Of a stretch of DNA of 45,909 bases, positions 37,772-45,837 are shown piece by piece. Source of the stretch: Pseudobacteriovorax antillogorgiicola (GTDB lineage: Bacteria > Bdellovibrionota_B > Oligoflexia > Oligoflexales > RGVZ01). The notes below the pieces were generated by a model, which saw only the letters and a program-made list of their open reading frames with translations, was not told where the DNA came from and searched no databases. Position 1 is the stretch's first letter; each line of letters begins with the position of its first letter. The position numbers and the translations under genes are program-made. Location of the stretch: assembly GCA_945865565.1 (NCBI GenBank), contig CAMBEK010000013.1, forward strand, positions 1 to 45,909, written 5' to 3'.

Positions 37772-40651
37772 ATGAACAAAACCGATACGGAAAACACTAC
37801 CCCCGATCGTCCACTTCGCCTGTTCGTTGTGGATGCCATGGCCCTCGCCTTCCGAAGCTACCATGCCTTTGCCGCGCGCCCCTTGAGCACCTCGTCCGGA
37901 ATTCCGACGTCTGCGATTTACGGCTCGGCCGTTTTCCTCATGAAGCTCATAGAAGAAGAAAAGCCCGACTACCTCGTTATTGCAACCGACAGCAAGGAAC
38001 GAACCTTCCGGCACGAAATGTACCCGCTCTATAAAGCGAACAGATCCGAAATGCCGGAAGACCTTGCGCGCCAACTGCCCTACCTGTTTCGCCTCTTTGA
38101 ATCCTTTGGCTGCAAGCTGCTCAAACGACCCGGCATGGAGGCCGATGACCTCATCGGCAGCCTGGTCAAGCAATACGGCGGACCCGCCCTAGACTGCTAT
38201 ATTGTGTCCGGCGACAAAGATTTCATGCAGCTGATCAACAATCATATCTTTCTTTACACGCCAAAAAAAGCCGAGCCTGCTCAAATTATAGACATCGCTG
38301 GCGTCCGGGAAAAGTTCTCCTGCGGACCGGAGCATGTCGTGGATGCCCTGGCGATGATTGGAGACACCGCCGACAACGTGCCCGGCGTTAACGGTATTGG
38401 AGACAAGGGTGCCGCAAAACTCATTGGTGCCTATGGCAGCCTTGAAGGCATCTACGAGCATCTTGATGAGATCAAAAACGAAAAGCAGCGGGAATCACTG
38501 CGCTCCTCAAAGGATGCCGCTTTTCTCTCCCGCGAACTGCTGCGGATCAAAACAGACTTGGAACTGGACCACCTTCTTGATGACATGAAGTTCGATCCGA
38601 AAACCGCAATTGCCAATCCGGATTTGCAGTATTTCTTCGATGAAATGGAGTTTCGCAACCTGGCACAAAGGGTCCAGACTGAGGCAAAAGACTTGCAGCG
38701 CGAATCGCGCACGGCACCACCATCAAATGTGTCAACAGCCACAAACACACCAGCTATTTCCCTTGCACTAGAAAACCAGCCAAAGTCCGCGCCAGTCCCA
38801 ATGGATGCCGCGCTGATGAATCGCGATGGCTACATTCTGGCAAACACTCCCGATAAATTGCGCGCTGCCTTGCAGGCCTTATCCGTCGCAAATCTTGTTT
38901 GTTTTGACACTGAAACCACGGGACTCAACGTCGTTGATGACCGCCCCATCGGGATCAGTGCAAGTACGTCTGCCGGACATGGTTGGTACATACCCTTGAT
39001 CAACAAGCATCTGGAAGGCGGCCTCACGGAAAAAGACGCCCTTGCCAGCGTGAAATCCTGGCTTGAACAAGCCGCTGTCCCTGGACATCCCGCCCAGATC
39101 AAAATCGCACACAACTTGAAGTTTGACTTGCAGATGTTGCGCAACGCCGGCGTGGAGCCCGCCGGACCGTTTGTCGATACGATGCTCTGCTCATGGCTGC
39201 TGGATTCCATCGGCCGCGAGCACGGACTTGACGCCTGTGCCATGCGCCATCTGGGGATTCTAAAAACCCCGACGTCGGACTTGATCGGACTTCGCGGCGA
39301 AATTCCAATGAGCGATGTTCCCATCGAAAAGCTAAGTGACTACGCGATTGAAGACGCTGAAGTCACCTTCCGCCTCTACGAATTTTTCATGCCAGAGATT
39401 CGCAAGGCCGGATTGGAGAAAGTTTTATACGAGATTGAAATGCCACTTGTTCCAATCTTGGCCTCGATGGAACGAGAAGGCGTCTTTATTGATGCCGGAG
39501 AACTTTCAAAAATTTCAGATTATCTGGCCATCGAAGCCGCTCGGCTGGAAAAGAAGATTCACGAACTGGCCGGCGAAGAGTTCAACATCAACTCTACCAA
39601 GCAACTACAAAAGATCCTGTTTGAAAAGCTGAAGGTTCACGAACAAGTCGGCGTGAAACGCCTGAAAAAAACCAAATCTGGTTTTTCAACCGATGTCTCC
39701 GTCCTTGAGGCCTTGAGTTCACATCCGTTGCCCGAGGCGATCCTTGCCTATCGATCTGTTGCCAAACTCAAAAACACCTATGTTGATGCACTGCCACAAC
39801 TGATCAATCCGCGAACAAACCGGATCCACACCAGCTTTCACCAAACCGGCACAGCCACCGGCCGTCTCAGCTCTTCTGATCCAAACCTGCAAAACATTCC
39901 GATCCGGACCACACAGGGCCGGGAAATTCGCCGGGCATTCCGAGCAGGAATCGACAGCTGGGTTTTGATTTCTGCAGATTATTCCCAAGTCGAACTTCGG
40001 ATCCTGGCCCATGTGGCCGGAGAAGAAGCCTTGACCGAAGCCTTTCGCACCGGAATGGACATTCACAATGCAACTGCATCGCGTATTTTCGGGGTCAGCC
40101 CCAACGATGTGGACCAGACCCTGAGGTCCCGGGCCAAAGCCATCAACTTCGGCATCATCTACGGGATGGGCCCGCAGCGCCTCGCCCGTGAGACAGGCGT
40201 CTCCATGGCGGAGGCAAAAGAATTTATCGAAAAATATTTCGCGGGTTACCCACGCATCAAAGAATACATCGCAGGTGCCGTTGCCAAAGCCAAGGCTGCG
40301 GGATTCAGCGAGACCATATCCGGCCGCCGCCGCCCAATGCCAGACCTGCACTCGACCGATCGGCTGGCGCAAGTCAACGCTGAAAACATCGCGGTAAATT
40401 CACCGATCCAAGGCAGCGCGGCTGATCTGATCAAACTTGCGATGATTCGCGTTGAAAGCGAACTACGTACCGCGGGCATGAAAGCCAAACTATTGTTGCA
40501 GGTTCACGACGAACTGGTTTTTGAATCTCCCCCGGAAGAAGCCAAACAAGTGATTGACATCATCCGCCACGCGATGGAACACGCCATGGAACTGGACGTA
40601 CCCCTGAAGGTTGAAGTTGGTACTGGTAACAATTGGCTGGAGGCCCATTGA
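37772..40651 (+). CDS. polA: DNA polymerase I
   Basis: 959 residues, three domains. The 5' nuclease (about 1-300) opens LFVVDAMALAFRSYHAF and has TADNVPGVNGIGDKGA. The 3'-5' proofreading domain (about 350-545) looks active: CFDTETTGL, IAHNLKFDLQML and YAIEDAEVTFRLYE supply its Asp/Glu residues. The polymerase domain carries TATGRLSSSDPNLQNIP, motif A SADYSQVELRILAH, the O-helix RSRAKAINFGIIYGMG and motif C QVHDELVFE. It fills gaps and removes RNA primers in replication and repair. The stop overlaps the tatC start by one base (TGATG). Confidence 0.98.
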   Translation: MNKTDTENTTPDRPLRLFVVDAMALAFRSYHAFAARPLSTSSGIPTSAIYGSAVFLMKLIEEEKPDYLVIATDSKERTFRHEMYPLYKANRSEMPEDLARQLPYLFRLFESFGCKLLKRPGMEADDLIGSLVKQYGGPALDCYIVSGDKDFMQLINNHIFLYTPKKAEPAQIIDIAGVREKFSCGPEHVVDALAMIGDTADNVPGVNGIGDKGAAKLIGAYGSLEGIYEHLDEIKNEKQRESLRSSKDAAFLSRELLRIKTDLELDHLLDDMKFDPKTAIANPDLQYFFDEMEFRNLAQRVQTEAKDLQRESRTAPPSNVSTATNTPAISLALENQPKSAPVPMDAALMNRDGYILANTPDKLRAALQALSVANLVCFDTETTGLNVVDDRPIGISASTSAGHGWYIPLINKHLEGGLTEKDALASVKSWLEQAAVPGHPAQIKIAHNLKFDLQMLRNAGVEPAGPFVDTMLCSWLLDSIGREHGLDACAMRHLGILKTPTSDLIGLRGEIPMSDVPIEKLSDYAIEDAEVTFRLYEFFMPEIRKAGLEKVLYEIEMPLVPILASMEREGVFIDAGELSKISDYLAIEAARLEKKIHELAGEEFNINSTKQLQKILFEKLKVHEQVGVKRLKKTKSGFSTDVSVLEALSSHPLPEAILAYRSVAKLKNTYVDALPQLINPRTNRIHTSFHQTGTATGRLSSSDPNLQNIPIRTTQGREIRRAFRAGIDSWVLISADYSQVELRILAHVAGEEALTEAFRTGMDIHNATASRIFGVSPNDVDQTLRSRAKAINFGIIYGMGPQRLARETGVSMAEAKEFIEKYFAGYPRIKEYIAGAVAKAKAAGFSETISGRRRPMPDLHSTDRLAQVNAENIAVNSPIQGSAADLIKLAMIRVESELRTAGMKAKLLLQVHDELVFESPPEEAKQVIDIIRHAMEHAMELDVPLKVEVGTGNNWLEAH

Positions 40652-42195
40652 TGCAGATGCAACTCATGGAACATCTTGATGAACTAAGGACCCGCCTGAC
40701 CCGTTCCGTCTCGGTCATCATGATTGCCTTTGTGCTGTTGATGTTCAAAGCACAGGCGCTGATCAACTTTCTAAAGGTCCCCCTCGTCAACGCCCTGCCT
40801 CCAGGAACACCGGCCCTGCACTTCACCGGTCCAATGGACGTGATGTTCGTAGGAATGAAAGTCGCTTTCATGGCGGCCGTCATCGTGACGAGTCCATTTT
40901 GGTTGCGTGAATTCTGGAAATTTTTTGAGCCAGGCCTTTATGCTGCTGAACGAAAATATGTCCTGCCCTTCATTTGGGGATCAGTCGCGCTGTTCCTTGC
41001 GGGAATTGCCTTTTGTTATTTCGTAGCCTTGCCGTATACGCTTGGATTCCTGATCACGATTGGCATTGAAGTTGGAGTGCCGATCATAACGGTAACGGAT
41101 TACGTCGGCCTTTTGATTCTACTTTTCACTGGTTTCGGACTGGTTTTCGAAACACCATTGATTCTGGTGTTATTGTCACTCCTCGATGTCATTGACTCAA
41201 AAACCCTCACTTCTCAGCGTCGCATTGCGCTCGTGGTCATCTTGATCATTGCCGCATTCCTGACTCCAGGACCCGACCCGATTTCACAATTTGTGATGGC
41301 AGTTCCGTTGTACGGTCTTTTTGAATTGTCGATCCTGATCATCCAGCGCCTCGAAAAAAATCGTGCGCTCAAGGCGAAAACAGAAGGCGGGCATACCGGC
41401 ACCATCGCGACCATGCTTTTAATTTTTGGAAGTTTGGCATTCTTTGCCATCAATCCAGGGGAATTGCGGGCCGGTGAGCCTGATGCGAGAGATGCCGCTA
41501 ACGCCGGATCTTTTTGGACATTTGGTGCAGGCATTGCGTCTTACAATTTAGAAACGGAATCGATTCACTCGATCAAGGGGCGATCGGCCCGGATCAGCAT
41601 CGGTCATGATACCGGCGGCAAGGCATGGAGCATTGCCACGAGCTTCGACCTGATCATGGGACCCTATGCACCGGTAAATCCTGGACGTCTGCGCCGCATT
41701 GACATGGACTTCAATGGCAGTGGCTTTACCATGATGGGAAATTACCGCCTTCAGCCATCCAATGATCCTCGAACTGGTTCAGCGGCTCTGCTTGCCGGCG
41801 TATCGTATCTGGATTTGACCGGACGCTCCCTCGGTGGAGGATTTGAACGAGACTTCGTCCTGGCACCTGTGGCCAACAGCGAGGCTGCCGCAGATCCAGT
41901 CCAGGTTCTTGATAATTATAAATTGAGGGCGGCACGTTTTTCGGCAATCGCGGGAATCGCCTGGAATGCCAACTGGGGCAAGGCACGCACTTCGAACCAA
42001 CCATCTGATCTGAAGACCCGCGTCGATGGCTACAAGCTATCCCTCTGGACCGAGGTGCCATTCATCTCAAACTACACGTCTGAATACGATCTTGTGACGG
42101 CATCGGACCAAGTCCAGAGCCAAACGATCAATGACCGTGGAAGCCTTTCCGGATACAGCATTGTCCTTCAAGCGACTGCACTGCTGGGCAGTTAG
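40651..42195 (+). CDS. tatC: TatC fused in frame to a C-terminal beta-barrel-like domain
   Basis: 514 residues, about twice the normal TatC length. Residues 1-245 are TatC, the six-helix core of the twin-arginine translocase: MEHLDELRTRL with Glu11, FEPGLYAAERK with Glu100, FLTPGPDPISQ. Then comes a seventh hydrophobic stretch (251-268, TIATMLLIFGSLAFFAIN) and 240 residues of strand-rich sequence (NAGSFWTFGAGIASYNLE; ALLAGVSYLDLTGRS; SLSGYSIVLQATALLGS) like an outer-membrane barrel. No stop or clear internal ribosome site separates them, though ATG 41413 could start the second part. TatC's own C-terminus is cytosolic, so the added helix would carry the domain to the periplasm; cleavage may release it. 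Confidence 0.85.
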   Translation: MQMQLMEHLDELRTRLTRSVSVIMIAFVLLMFKAQALINFLKVPLVNALPPGTPALHFTGPMDVMFVGMKVAFMAAVIVTSPFWLREFWKFFEPGLYAAERKYVLPFIWGSVALFLAGIAFCYFVALPYTLGFLITIGIEVGVPIITVTDYVGLLILLFTGFGLVFETPLILVLLSLLDVIDSKTLTSQRRIALVVILIIAAFLTPGPDPISQFVMAVPLYGLFELSILIIQRLEKNRALKAKTEGGHTGTIATMLLIFGSLAFFAINPGELRAGEPDARDAANAGSFWTFGAGIASYNLETESIHSIKGRSARISIGHDTGGKAWSIATSFDLIMGPYAPVNPGRLRRIDMDFNGSGFTMMGNYRLQPSNDPRTGSAALLAGVSYLDLTGRSLGGGFERDFVLAPVANSEAAADPVQVLDNYKLRAARFSAIAGIAWNANWGKARTSNQPSDLKTRVDGYKLSLWTEVPFISNYTSEYDLVTASDQVQSQTINDRGSLSGYSIVLQATALLGS

Positions 42196-43181
42196 CGACC
42201 GCAGGCCGTAAGTGCCATTGCCGGCAATTCGCCTTCCGCAGAATCCACCACGTTGCCTGCACGATCCACGAGGAAAAACGTTGGTGTCGCACTGATTGAC
42301 CTTCCGAGTCTTCCTGCAACCGCTGAAAAACCCTCTGCAGTGGAAATAGTATGCGACCCGGTCGACCCAGATGCTGGAAAAATCCTGAGCCATGCATTCA
42401 TCTCGCTTGAGCGCACGATCGTGAAACTGGAACACTTCCCTGCCTCACCACTGAAAGCTGATAGGAAGTTCTGATCGTTAGCCAGCTCGCGAGCCATCGA
42501 AAGGCAACCACCACAACCGGGCGCCGAAAAATCGAGCAGTAGATACTGGCCGGTAAAGAGCGATGAGAGCATGATTTTGCTACCGCGAGCGTCCGTAACC
42601 TCGGAGTCTTTTGAAGACGGCAATGCCGGTCCGGAAGGCGTACCCGGTTGGGGCTGAACTCCGTTGGGATTGCCGCCGGGTGGAACCACGTTGATGTCAA
42701 GGCTAGACCCGAGATCCCGCAGGACCAAGGCCGCTTGATAGGATGGTTTGCCAAAAATCTCCGACTTGCTGATCCTTAGTGCTGGATCGTTGCGAAAAAA
42801 CACGCGATCAAGAACCTGCCCTGAGCCCGAAACTGCGCCGAGTTCCAAAGTGACATTATAATCGCAACCCTGACGAATGCTGGAAGCCAACCGCGTCGTT
42901 GATTCAAATTCGCCAACCTGGTCGATCCGAGTTGCTCCCAGACAATTATTTTCTACCGGAACAACTTGAAGCCGATATCCAAACGCGCGGCGTTGAATCA
43001 GACCATCGATCTCTTGATTGCGTCCCTGTAAATCTGATGCGCGAGGCATATTCATGTCTATGGATGTAAGGCCCGCGCCGCGACCTGCGCTGCCGACTCC
43101 GATCGCACCTGGCTGTACCGGAGTGCACGCTACAGTCGCAACTCCCACACAAACCGCAATCGCATTGACGAACAGACGCAT
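42192..43181 (-). CDS. Lipoprotein with C-terminal thioredoxin-like domain (CGGC)
   Basis: 329 residues from ATG 43181, chosen because GAGG is well placed and MRLFVNAIAVCVGVATVAC is a proper lipoprotein signal (lipid Cys19). The middle part (20-200) is strand-rich with a Pro/Gly linker. The C-terminal domain is thioredoxin-like: LLLDFSAPGCGGCLSMA with Cys223-Cys226, and SATPTFFLVDRAG with the cis-Pro. Expected on the periplasmic face as a thiol oxidoreductase. It is divergent from the two other thioredoxin-fold genes. Its 3' end overlaps the TatC fusion by 4 bp. Confidence 0.85.
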   Translation of the reverse strand: MRLFVNAIAVCVGVATVACTPVQPGAIGVGSAGRGAGLTSIDMNMPRASDLQGRNQEIDGLIQRRAFGYRLQVVPVENNCLGATRIDQVGEFESTTRLASSIRQGCDYNVTLELGAVSGSGQVLDRVFFRNDPALRISKSEIFGKPSYQAALVLRDLGSSLDINVVPPGGNPNGVQPQPGTPSGPALPSSKDSEVTDARGSKIMLSSLFTGQYLLLDFSAPGCGGCLSMARELANDQNFLSAFSGEAGKCSSFTIVRSSEMNAWLRIFPASGSTGSHTISTAEGFSAVAGRLGRSISATPTFFLVDRAGNVVDSAEGELPAMALTACGR

Positions 43182-43283
43182 GGGCAACCTCAACTTTCGT
43201 TTGTAGGTAGCGATGTTCAAGAAACATGCCGGGCGGGTCTGTGGATAAAAACAATTAAATACGGCAACTTATCAAAGAAATTA

Positions 43284-43331
43284 TTGACACCGATCGGGTT
43301 TTGAATGTCGCTAATTTTGACGGTGTCAAAA
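43284..43331. promoter_or_regulatory. Inverted repeats in the divergent redox-gene gap
   Basis: In the 288-bp gap 43182-43469: TTGACACCG (43284-43292) recurs inverted as CGGTGTCAA (43321-43329), and TTTTGAC-ggt-GTCAAAA (43315-43331) is itself a perfect dyad. They look like operator sites for a regulator of both divergent units. No good -10 box was found with them. The rest of the gap holds nothing else I can support. Confidence 0.4.
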
Positions 43332-43469
43332 GGCTTTACAGAGGACCATCCTGCACCAGGCTGGCAGTAAATTAAAAACGCCAATGCAGTCAGCGGATTA
43401 TAGCAGACCGCGGACCACTTCAGCCCGGCATGGGTCTTGCTCCATGCTCTCTATCAACACGAGGTCTGC

Positions 43470-44039
43470 ATGAAGCTATTGTCCACGATCCTATTGGGTT
43501 TGACCCTGACCGCTTGCGCGAGCAGCCAACCCGCAGCGACCCGACCGGTGTCCAATCAGCCGTTCGGCAGCACGTCGGGATTGCAAGCCCTCCCGGCCAG
43601 TTCGTGGCAAGTGGTTTACAACGTACGATCCATGAGCCTTCCAGAGATCTTGACCGCCTCTGGAAAAAGCGCCGCGATTTTTCAATTCGCGGGTGTGACT
43701 TGCGTCACCTGTCAACGGGACGCCCAAGAATACACGAGCCGCATCCAACGCAGTGCGTTGAAAAATAAATTAGCTCATATAGTAGTGTTCACTGATTTTT
43801 CTGAAGACTTTCAGGAAAACGATTTCGCATCCTTCATGAACCAATACGCACCGCAATCCATCAGAACCCAAGACAGCAATGGCCGGTTGTGGCTCTCCCT
43901 GCAAAAAGATCCATCGATGCCGGACCGCAATGTGATGGTGGTTCTGGGGCAAAACGGCAAAGGACTCTCGCTCAACGAAGCCACAAGCCACGACCTGATT
44001 TTTAGCACCCTCGAGGGCCTGGCCTCGGGTGCCCTATGA
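43470..44039 (+). CDS. Thioredoxin-fold lipoprotein (CVTC)
   Basis: 189 residues from ATG 43470, after a well-placed GAGG. Lipoprotein signal MKLLSTILLGLTLTAC (lipid Cys16). A thioredoxin-like fold follows: AAIFQFAGVTCVTCQRD with Cys78-Cys81, then IVVFTDFSEDF and DRNVMVVLGQNG. The usual cis-Pro motif is not obvious. A periplasmic thiol-disulfide role is likely. The stop overlaps the next gene's start (ATGA), so both are made together. Confidence 0.82.
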   Translation: MKLLSTILLGLTLTACASSQPAATRPVSNQPFGSTSGLQALPASSWQVVYNVRSMSLPEILTASGKSAAIFQFAGVTCVTCQRDAQEYTSRIQRSALKNKLAHIVVFTDFSEDFQENDFASFMNQYAPQSIRTQDSNGRLWLSLQKDPSMPDRNVMVVLGQNGKGLSLNEATSHDLIFSTLEGLASGAL

Positions 44040-44524
44040 AATTAACCCACGCAATTCTTGTGATGGCGTTGGCGAGTGTCTCAAGCACGGCATTTGCTCA
44101 AAATGCGTTAGAGCGATTTTCACAGCCTGGGGCAGTCCGGCTTGATCAAACTGCAAAAAACCCAGTCCCCACCAAAGGACCGGCCCTGATCCAATTTTGG
44201 GCATCTTGGTGTGTAGGCTGCCGCAAAAACATGGATATGGTTTTGGAATCGAACAAGGAGCAGGGAATACCCTTCGTGATGGTCAGTTTGGATGAGGATC
44301 CAGCCGCAGCCCGCAATTACCTGCAACGCGCCGGGGCATCTTCGGATCAACTGCAATCCCTCACCCTGGTTGACACAAAACAAGAGATTGCCACCGCGCT
44401 AAAAATAACGACCGTCCCTACCCTACTGTTCATTGACCGCGACGGAAAAATCGCTGCGCGAATTGTTGGCCACACGACACCGGCTGAAATCAAGTCCATG
44501 CAACGCAGCATCGTCAGCCATTAG
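44036..44524 (+). CDS. Secreted TlpA/ResA-like thioredoxin (CVGC)
   Basis: 162 residues. The signal peptide is cleaved after STAFA, leaving a periplasmic thioredoxin domain: ALIQFWASWCVGCRKNM with Cys59-Cys62, and ITTVPTLLFIDRDGKIAARIVG with the cis-Pro. This is the TlpA/ResA/DsbE layout, usually a reductant of specific periplasmic partners such as apocytochromes or other thiol proteins. Translationally coupled to the lipoprotein before it; the DUF4266-like gene follows 33 bp later. Confidence 0.92.
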   Translation: MKLTHAILVMALASVSSTAFAQNALERFSQPGAVRLDQTAKNPVPTKGPALIQFWASWCVGCRKNMDMVLESNKEQGIPFVMVSLDEDPAAARNYLQRAGASSDQLQSLTLVDTKQEIATALKITTVPTLLFIDRDGKIAARIVGHTTPAEIKSMQRSIVSH

Positions 44525-44557: not shown

Positions 44558-44818
44558 ATGATTTATTACATGACAAACTCAATGAGTTCGATGAGGCCTT
44601 CGCGCCTCATTCTCCTGTTGATCCTCCTGGTTACAGTTTCCTGCATCCACCCAAAAGTAAAATTTCAAAAATCCATGCTGCTGGATCCTTTACTCGATCC
44701 AGCAAAAGATCAGACACTCTTGGATTCAGTGACGACAGAACCAACACGCCGAATTGAACATGGCGATCCATCTGGTGGTTCTGTTGGCGGCGCGACGTGC
44801 CCAACCTGTGGGGGCTGA
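44558..44818 (+). CDS. Small lipoprotein, DUF4266-like, ending in a Cys/Gly motif
   Basis: 86 residues from ATG 44558; ATG 44570, 44582 or 44591 are alternatives, and 44591 (MRPSRLILLLILLVTVSC) gives the cleanest lipoprotein signal. After the lipid Cys come about 55 residues (HPKVKFQKSMLLDPLLD...) ending GDPSGGSVGGATCPTCGG. The pattern lipid Cys, short linker, Ser/Gly run and terminal Cys-x-x-Cys recalls the DUF4266 family, whose members end in a Gly/Cys motif and lie beside DUF3570 and thioredoxin genes; that is from memory. The terminal Cys pair is a natural substrate for the thioredoxin proteins upstream, or a metal site. Confidence 0.75.
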   Translation: MIYYMTNSMSSMRPSRLILLLILLVTVSCIHPKVKFQKSMLLDPLLDPAKDQTLLDSVTTEPTRRIEHGDPSGGSVGGATCPTCGG

Positions 44819-44820
44819 TT

Positions 44821-45837
44821 GTGAATCGCTTTGCAATTGTGGGCGCCCTGGTTTTTCTTAATCTGCCAAGCCTTCTCCGGGCTGAGTCCATGCGTATCGA
44901 GGGCGCTGCTGCAGTTTATTCCGAGCGGGATTCCAAGGCTCTATTGGAAACCCTCGCCATACAAGGACACCAGAACAACTTGCGCCTCGGGATTTCGCGC
45001 CGCCATCCAGTTGGAAAAATGGATCCAGATTCGCCCCTGGCTGGAAATGAAACCGGCGTCACCCTGACAGGCGAAATTCCCGGGCCGAAGACCGAGTCAG
45101 GAACGGCAACATACTCCGTGGCACCAAAAATCGGTTGGCTCAGTTCGGAGGCGAAAGGAATCGACTCTATAAAGTCGATCAATCGATGGATTGGAACCGC
45201 CGTTTCATTTTGGACCGGTGAAGACACAACCCGCTGGACCCTGAACCTCCAAAGAACTTTCAGCAGTACCAAGGCACTGGACGTCACTGATGTTGACGGC
45301 AAACGAATCCTCACACCGGAACGCATCGCGGGTACCAGCGCGGGAATCAGCTGGATGCATCTGGCGACTCCAGAATTTCTGTGGCGCGGAAGCCTGTCGA
45401 TCATCCTCAGTGACGACCGCCCCAATGCCCATTCCGGATCCCTGGAAGGGCGCTACTTCATCGCACCAGTCAAGGCAGCCATTCATGCCTCCATCGCCCG
45501 ATTCGAAAACCGGGGAGCCATCCGACCGGTAACCTTGACCGGCAGCATTGCCGCCACCACCGCATCACTGGAGTGGCATCAAAAAATCGGCGAACGCACG
45601 ATCTTGGCCCCTGGATACCGTTGGTATCAAGAAACGGAAACGCCGCGCGCCGTCAACGGCCTCGTAAAAAAACTTGGCTCAGATCAGGTTTACACCACCG
45701 TTCGCTACCGCTTCTGGAAAGACTATTGGCTGGAAGATGCGTCGGAATTTTTTATTTCGACGGGATCTTATCAGACTAATACTGGGCTGAAATTATTTCA
45801 CGTGGCCGCTGGAATGACGATGATTCCAGTGGAGTAG
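44821..45837 (+). CDS. Putative outer-membrane protein, DUF3570-like
   Basis: 338 residues from GTG 44821, two bases after the previous stop, with GGGG upstream; a GTG at 44797 in the same frame is possible. The signal peptide is cleaved after LLRA. The mature part is strand-rich with barrel features: SGSLEGRYFIAPVKAAIHASIARFENRG, LAPGYRWYQETETP and YTTVRYRFWKDYW. The YRWYQE segment and position after the DUF4266-like gene suggest a distant DUF3570 member. Expected in the outer membrane. Function unknown. The last 72 bp of the window hold nothing I can support. Confidence 0.75.
   Translation: MNRFAIVGALVFLNLPSLLRAESMRIEGAAAVYSERDSKALLETLAIQGHQNNLRLGISRRHPVGKMDPDSPLAGNETGVTLTGEIPGPKTESGTATYSVAPKIGWLSSEAKGIDSIKSINRWIGTAVSFWTGEDTTRWTLNLQRTFSSTKALDVTDVDGKRILTPERIAGTSAGISWMHLATPEFLWRGSLSIILSDDRPNAHSGSLEGRYFIAPVKAAIHASIARFENRGAIRPVTLTGSIAATTASLEWHQKIGERTILAPGYRWYQETETPRAVNGLVKKLGSDQVYTTVRYRFWKDYWLEDASEFFISTGSYQTNTGLKLFHVAAGMTMIPVE

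Follow-up and report, generated by a model that had tools for sequence, protein, structure and literature searches.

The tatC locus and its extended reading frame

The window, by which we mean the whole stretch of 45,909 nucleotides analysed here (Pseudobacteriovorax antillogorgiicola, contig CAMBEK010000013.1), carries downstream of polA a tatC gene whose reading frame continues without a stop into a second coding region. The features of the locus are the following:

37772-40651, + strand: polA, whose TGA stop shares one base with the tatC ATG
40651-42195, + strand: tatC::barrel fusion gene, 514 codons plus stop, an uninterrupted open frame
40651-41370, + strand: TatC part (residues 1-240), a six-helix translocase core followed by a positively charged cytosolic tail
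41371-41400, + strand: charged linker (residues 241-250), fast evolving in the codon alignment and of low confidence in the full-length model
41401-41472, + strand: putative former signal peptide of the barrel gene, made of hydrophobic segment 7 (residues 251-267) and NPGELRA
within 41401-41472, + strand: candidate signal peptidase I site after Ala274 (LRA/GEP), found by inspection
41509-42192, + strand: predicted eight-stranded barrel domain of outer-membrane type (residues 287-514), from AlphaFold2, Foldseek and VIA-align

The preliminary description, made from the sequence of the window, had taken 40651-42195 for a single uninterrupted frame. This is what we found: the frame has 514 codons, and its equivalent is open in all four genomes of the genus. 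It had also described a complete TatC followed by a hydrophobic helix and a barrel-like tail. The three parts are there, as judged from PF00902, hydropathy and AlphaFold2, but the boundary had to be moved, since the helix starts at about residue 251 and the barrel at about residue 287 rather than at 270.

The first half is a full six-helix TatC. The Pfam TatC family PF00902 matches residues 7-219 along its entire profile (1-208 of 208; E 1e-61, 208.8 bits), the NCBIfam tatC equivalog TIGR00945 matches residues 5-224, again along its entire profile (1-215 of 215), with 181.6 against a cut-off of 132.7, and the alignment with TatC chains of the PDB extends to residue 234. No other TatC was found in any of the four fused genomes, a result to be read with assemblies that are about 90% complete. 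TatA/B family members are encoded elsewhere in these genomes, and twin-arginine signal matches are present, those of the window's own genome being sub-threshold. With no second TatC found and TatA/B family members present, the fused form is probably the functional TatC of these genomes. It resembles TatC in general by this complete core, its score above the equivalog cut-off, its single copy and the presence of TatA/B, and it departs from it by an added barrel, preceded by what is likely an internal signal peptide: in the four genomes about 275 C-terminal residues extend beyond the usual TatC, in place of a short cytosolic C-terminus. The 49 TatCs from other phyla have 236-269 codons, counted from the start of the match to the stop. 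Two TatC chains of the PDB, 9e02 and 9e03 (382 and 409 residues), likewise exceed the usual length of about 250; however, the alignment puts the extra residues of 9e02 between query positions 49 and 64, inside TatC and not in a C-terminal barrel.

Segment 251-267 (TIATMLLIFGSLAFFAI) has 17 residues with a mean Kyte-Doolittle value of 2.24, a hydrophobicity equal to that of the TatC helices, and is preceded by several Lys/Arg. In the AlphaFold2 model of the tail, built on a 25-sequence alignment (mean pLDDT 77.6, pTM 0.71), eight long antiparallel strands follow and close as a barrel. The best Foldseek match of this model is OmpW (TM 0.57 by target length), and VIA-align returned NspA (Z 16.6, 154 residues, 3.1 A) and OmpW (Z 15.2, 177 residues, 3.0 A), as well as OprF and OmpA. 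The full-length model is of lower confidence (pLDDT 65.9, pTM 0.45) and shows the TatC helices, a vague stretch at 243-284 in which residues 252-265 form a helix, and again the strands of the barrel. Comparison of the tail with protein families and predicted structures, a check proposed from the outset, gave no sequence family: none of the 25 barrel-alignment sequences has a Pfam or NCBIfam match at E 0.05, and the family is without a sequence match in the PDB. The predicted eight-stranded fold is thus shared with OmpW, the OmpA N-domain, NspA and OprF, but a family match at the sequence level is absent on the side of the tail, and identity in the structural alignments is about 10% or less. 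The assignment as a barrel, which comes from these models, names a fold and not a function. Both halves are under strong purifying selection, with omega of 0.03-0.07 in the TatC part and 0.08-0.17 in the barrel part (codon alignment of the four genus genomes).

Downstream of the fusion gene, positions 42192-44524 of the window hold three frames: a convergent one for a thioredoxin-like protein that is probably a lipoprotein, a small ORF whose start resembles that of a lipoprotein, and another for a thioredoxin-like protein. All three recur in each of the other three genus members (L031-L033); in loci more distant than these they were not detected. Further on (44797-45837) lies a 346-codon ORF with a strand-rich look and an apparent signal peptide, for which Pfam and NCBIfam searches gave no match; from its sequence it is possibly another envelope protein.

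A probable merger within an old gene neighbourhood

tatC has merged in frame with the following gene across the whole genus. The fusion occurs in four of the four genus genomes, the other three carrying it at 93, 74 and 69% identity, with zero in-frame stops. Among 58 genomes of the phylum, only these four have TatC matches with an open frame longer than 340 aa (518-553 aa), and no further TatC fusion was found in this set or in the 49 TatCs of other phyla; a search of viral contigs found nothing. For the more distant pairs of the genus, differences at synonymous sites approach saturation. The frame is not open by chance, since it is open in every genus member and omega is low in both halves. 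The gaps that separate the species at the junction are whole codons, which, the alignment being protein-guided, shows the open frame and is not an independent test of gap length. In one species the linker is a Ser/Gln/Ala/Pro repeat.

Could an assembly or sequencing error have deleted a stop? The genus is represented by draft assemblies, and the three named records are metagenome-assembled, which leaves some room for such an error. Against it, the junction is open, with differing sequence, in four genomes and on distinct contigs, and the three named MAGs bear differing isolate labels. We therefore reject this explanation, the chance of which we regard as negligible; conservation in four genomes largely replaces a test by read coverage. 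For these three named records, which are Oligoflexales MAGs, association with lake MAG series suggests a freshwater origin.

Outside the genus, within the order, tatC stops after about 236-254 codons. In most of these genomes a second gene, of about 225-300 codons, comes directly after tatC, the two commonly overlapping by the 4 bases ATGA; it is homologous to the tail of the fusion and starts like a signal peptide (for example L047:5720-6484, downstream of tatC; loci L034-L060). In the sister-genus locus L048 tatC and the barrel gene share one frame and are kept apart by no more than a TAA and a few codons, which shows how close to fusion the two-gene state can come. The simplest origin put forward at the start, an in-frame merger of two genes with loss of a stop, is supported by these relatives, which have two genes and a stop near the end of TatC, together with the fusion in all four genus members. 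Separate genes in relatives had been named beforehand as evidence against a genuine fusion. They do exist; nevertheless, combined with a fusion that is genus-wide, they speak for a merger and not for an error. Furthermore, the fused proteins form one branch of the TatC tree (support 100/100), so that a single change is needed, and a single merger suffices in this tree to explain all four fusions. At 1.01 changes per column, the stem leading to the fused clade is long; TatC may have evolved faster around the fusion, or the length may just mirror how distant the genus is.

The barrel family was detected in 34 of the 58 phylum genomes, once in each and always within the order of the window, and was not detected in the remaining ones, including every genome outside the order. 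In all 34 its gene lies on the contig of tatC and directly adjoins it. Upstream of tatC, polA is found in nearly all loci across the order. The fusion would thus fit an origin within an old polA-tatC-barrel neighbourhood. A functional link between the barrel and Tat was considered from adjacency alone and not accepted: as polA-tatC is likewise widely conserved, the locus may simply rearrange slowly. Two loci from another family, L057 and L058 (5001-5720), have a second, divergent tatC that is not followed by the barrel gene; the gene after it begins with MCRFLAYKG and looks like a class II glutamine amidotransferase.

The junction and the fate of the product

A signal peptidase I site is laid out as a hydrophobic segment followed by Ala or Leu at -3 and Ala at -1. 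Inspection of the junction showed such a candidate site after segment 7. The four species read NPGELRA/G (the window), NPGEARA/A, NPSVARA/A and NPAKLIA/E, the slash marking the candidate site; Pro at -6, Ala or Leu at -3 and Ala at -1 are kept in all of them at fixed spacing, and N268-P269 is invariant. The -3 residue of the window, Leu, is a less favoured choice than Ala. This geometry persists in a part of the gene that is among its fastest to evolve.

Is the chain cut there? The preliminary description had left two outcomes side by side, an internal signal peptide or a tail that stays attached. In the second, the chain would remain whole, and the strand-rich tail would stay tethered to the membrane, as a periplasmic domain of TatC next to the translocase. 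Segment 7 could provide the anchor; in three of the four species its hydrophobicity reaches that of a true membrane helix. However, the tail is predicted to be an eight-stranded barrel of outer-membrane type, and its relatives are encoded by genes of their own, whose starts resemble signal peptides. Moreover, about 12-20 residues separate segment 7 from the first strand (about 20 in the window, about 12 in L033), a few nanometres when fully stretched, whereas the periplasm is roughly 20 nm wide. Such a tether cannot cross it, and a barrel of the outer membrane would therefore require cleavage from TatC. The short distance from helix to barrel and the preservation of the cleavage-site pattern where the gene evolves fast favour the internal signal peptide, and we consider a tethered tail unlikely.

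The same frame could also give two products, the full fusion and a barrel initiated separately at the ATG of codon 255 (window position 41413). In each of the four species the hydrophobic core does begin with an in-frame ATG (codons 255, 255, 254 and 259), and in one of them Shine-Dalgarno pairing is good. The pairing is weak in the other three, which is not decisive since it is often weak for the separate barrel genes of the relatives too. Between the window (41371-41412) and L031, its closest relative, 14 linker codons are without synonymous change, while the synonymous difference in the TatC part is 0.27; this silent-site identity is possibly due to chance, or else to a DNA or RNA signal, such as internal initiation could use. 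On the other hand, a signal peptide that began at Met255 would lack a positive n-region and, as there is no stop, ribosomes translating tatC must run into the barrel regardless. We hold separate initiation to be rather improbable.

Cleavage at an internal, former signal peptide accounts best, in our opinion, for the fused genes. The sole tatC of the genus and the gene next to it would then encode a polyprotein, which we regard as probable from the conserved features of the sequence. For translation, topology, cleavage, destination and function we infer the following course. The ribosome would make one chain of 514 residues, the six helices of TatC would insert normally, and the C-terminus of TatC would be left in the cytosol. 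Since the C-terminus of TatC is cytosolic, segment 7 would be oriented N-in/C-out: the former signal peptide would be taken up by the Sec translocon as a seventh segment, and the barrel would follow it to the periplasm. Signal peptidase I would most likely cut after Ala274, giving a TatC with a seventh helix at its C-terminus and a free eight-stranded OmpW/OmpA-like protein, which BAM would insert into the outer membrane. The genome encodes members of the signal peptidase I (PF10502) and Omp85 (PF01103) families.

Known parallels and significance

The principle of an internal signal that is cut is already known. The fbcH gene of Bradyrhizobium japonicum encodes a cytochrome b/c1 precursor in which a polytopic inner-membrane protein and an exported protein are separated by cleavage of an internal signal peptide. 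The likeness lies in one gene joining an inner-membrane protein to an exported one through such a peptide; however, the fbcH products share one inner-membrane complex, whereas the barrel half of the fusion appears to belong to the outer membrane. The difference here is that the products would be destined for two membranes and that one half is the core of an exporter. Among Tat components, too, a precursor that requires proteolytic processing is known: this is reported for TatA of Providencia stuartii, in which, however, an eight-residue N-terminal extension is removed by a rhomboid protease (PMC3712462). Among open-licence papers we found no report of a TatC-barrel fusion or of tatC in Oligoflexales.

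Natural fusions usually join proteins of one location. Here an inner-membrane exporter core is joined to a probable outer-membrane protein. As the halves would belong to different membranes, a cut in the middle of the chain is almost forced, and with it the tolerance by TatC of a seventh helix. One might go further and suppose that the polyprotein delivers the translocase subunit and the barrel in equal amounts, the barrel being an unrecognised outer-membrane partner of Tat in Oligoflexales; we offer this as a speculative idea, with the odds clearly against it. An undescribed, single-copy barrel family, which within the phylum was found in no other order and adjoins tatC in every case, makes it possible to test directly for a connection of Tat with the outer membrane.
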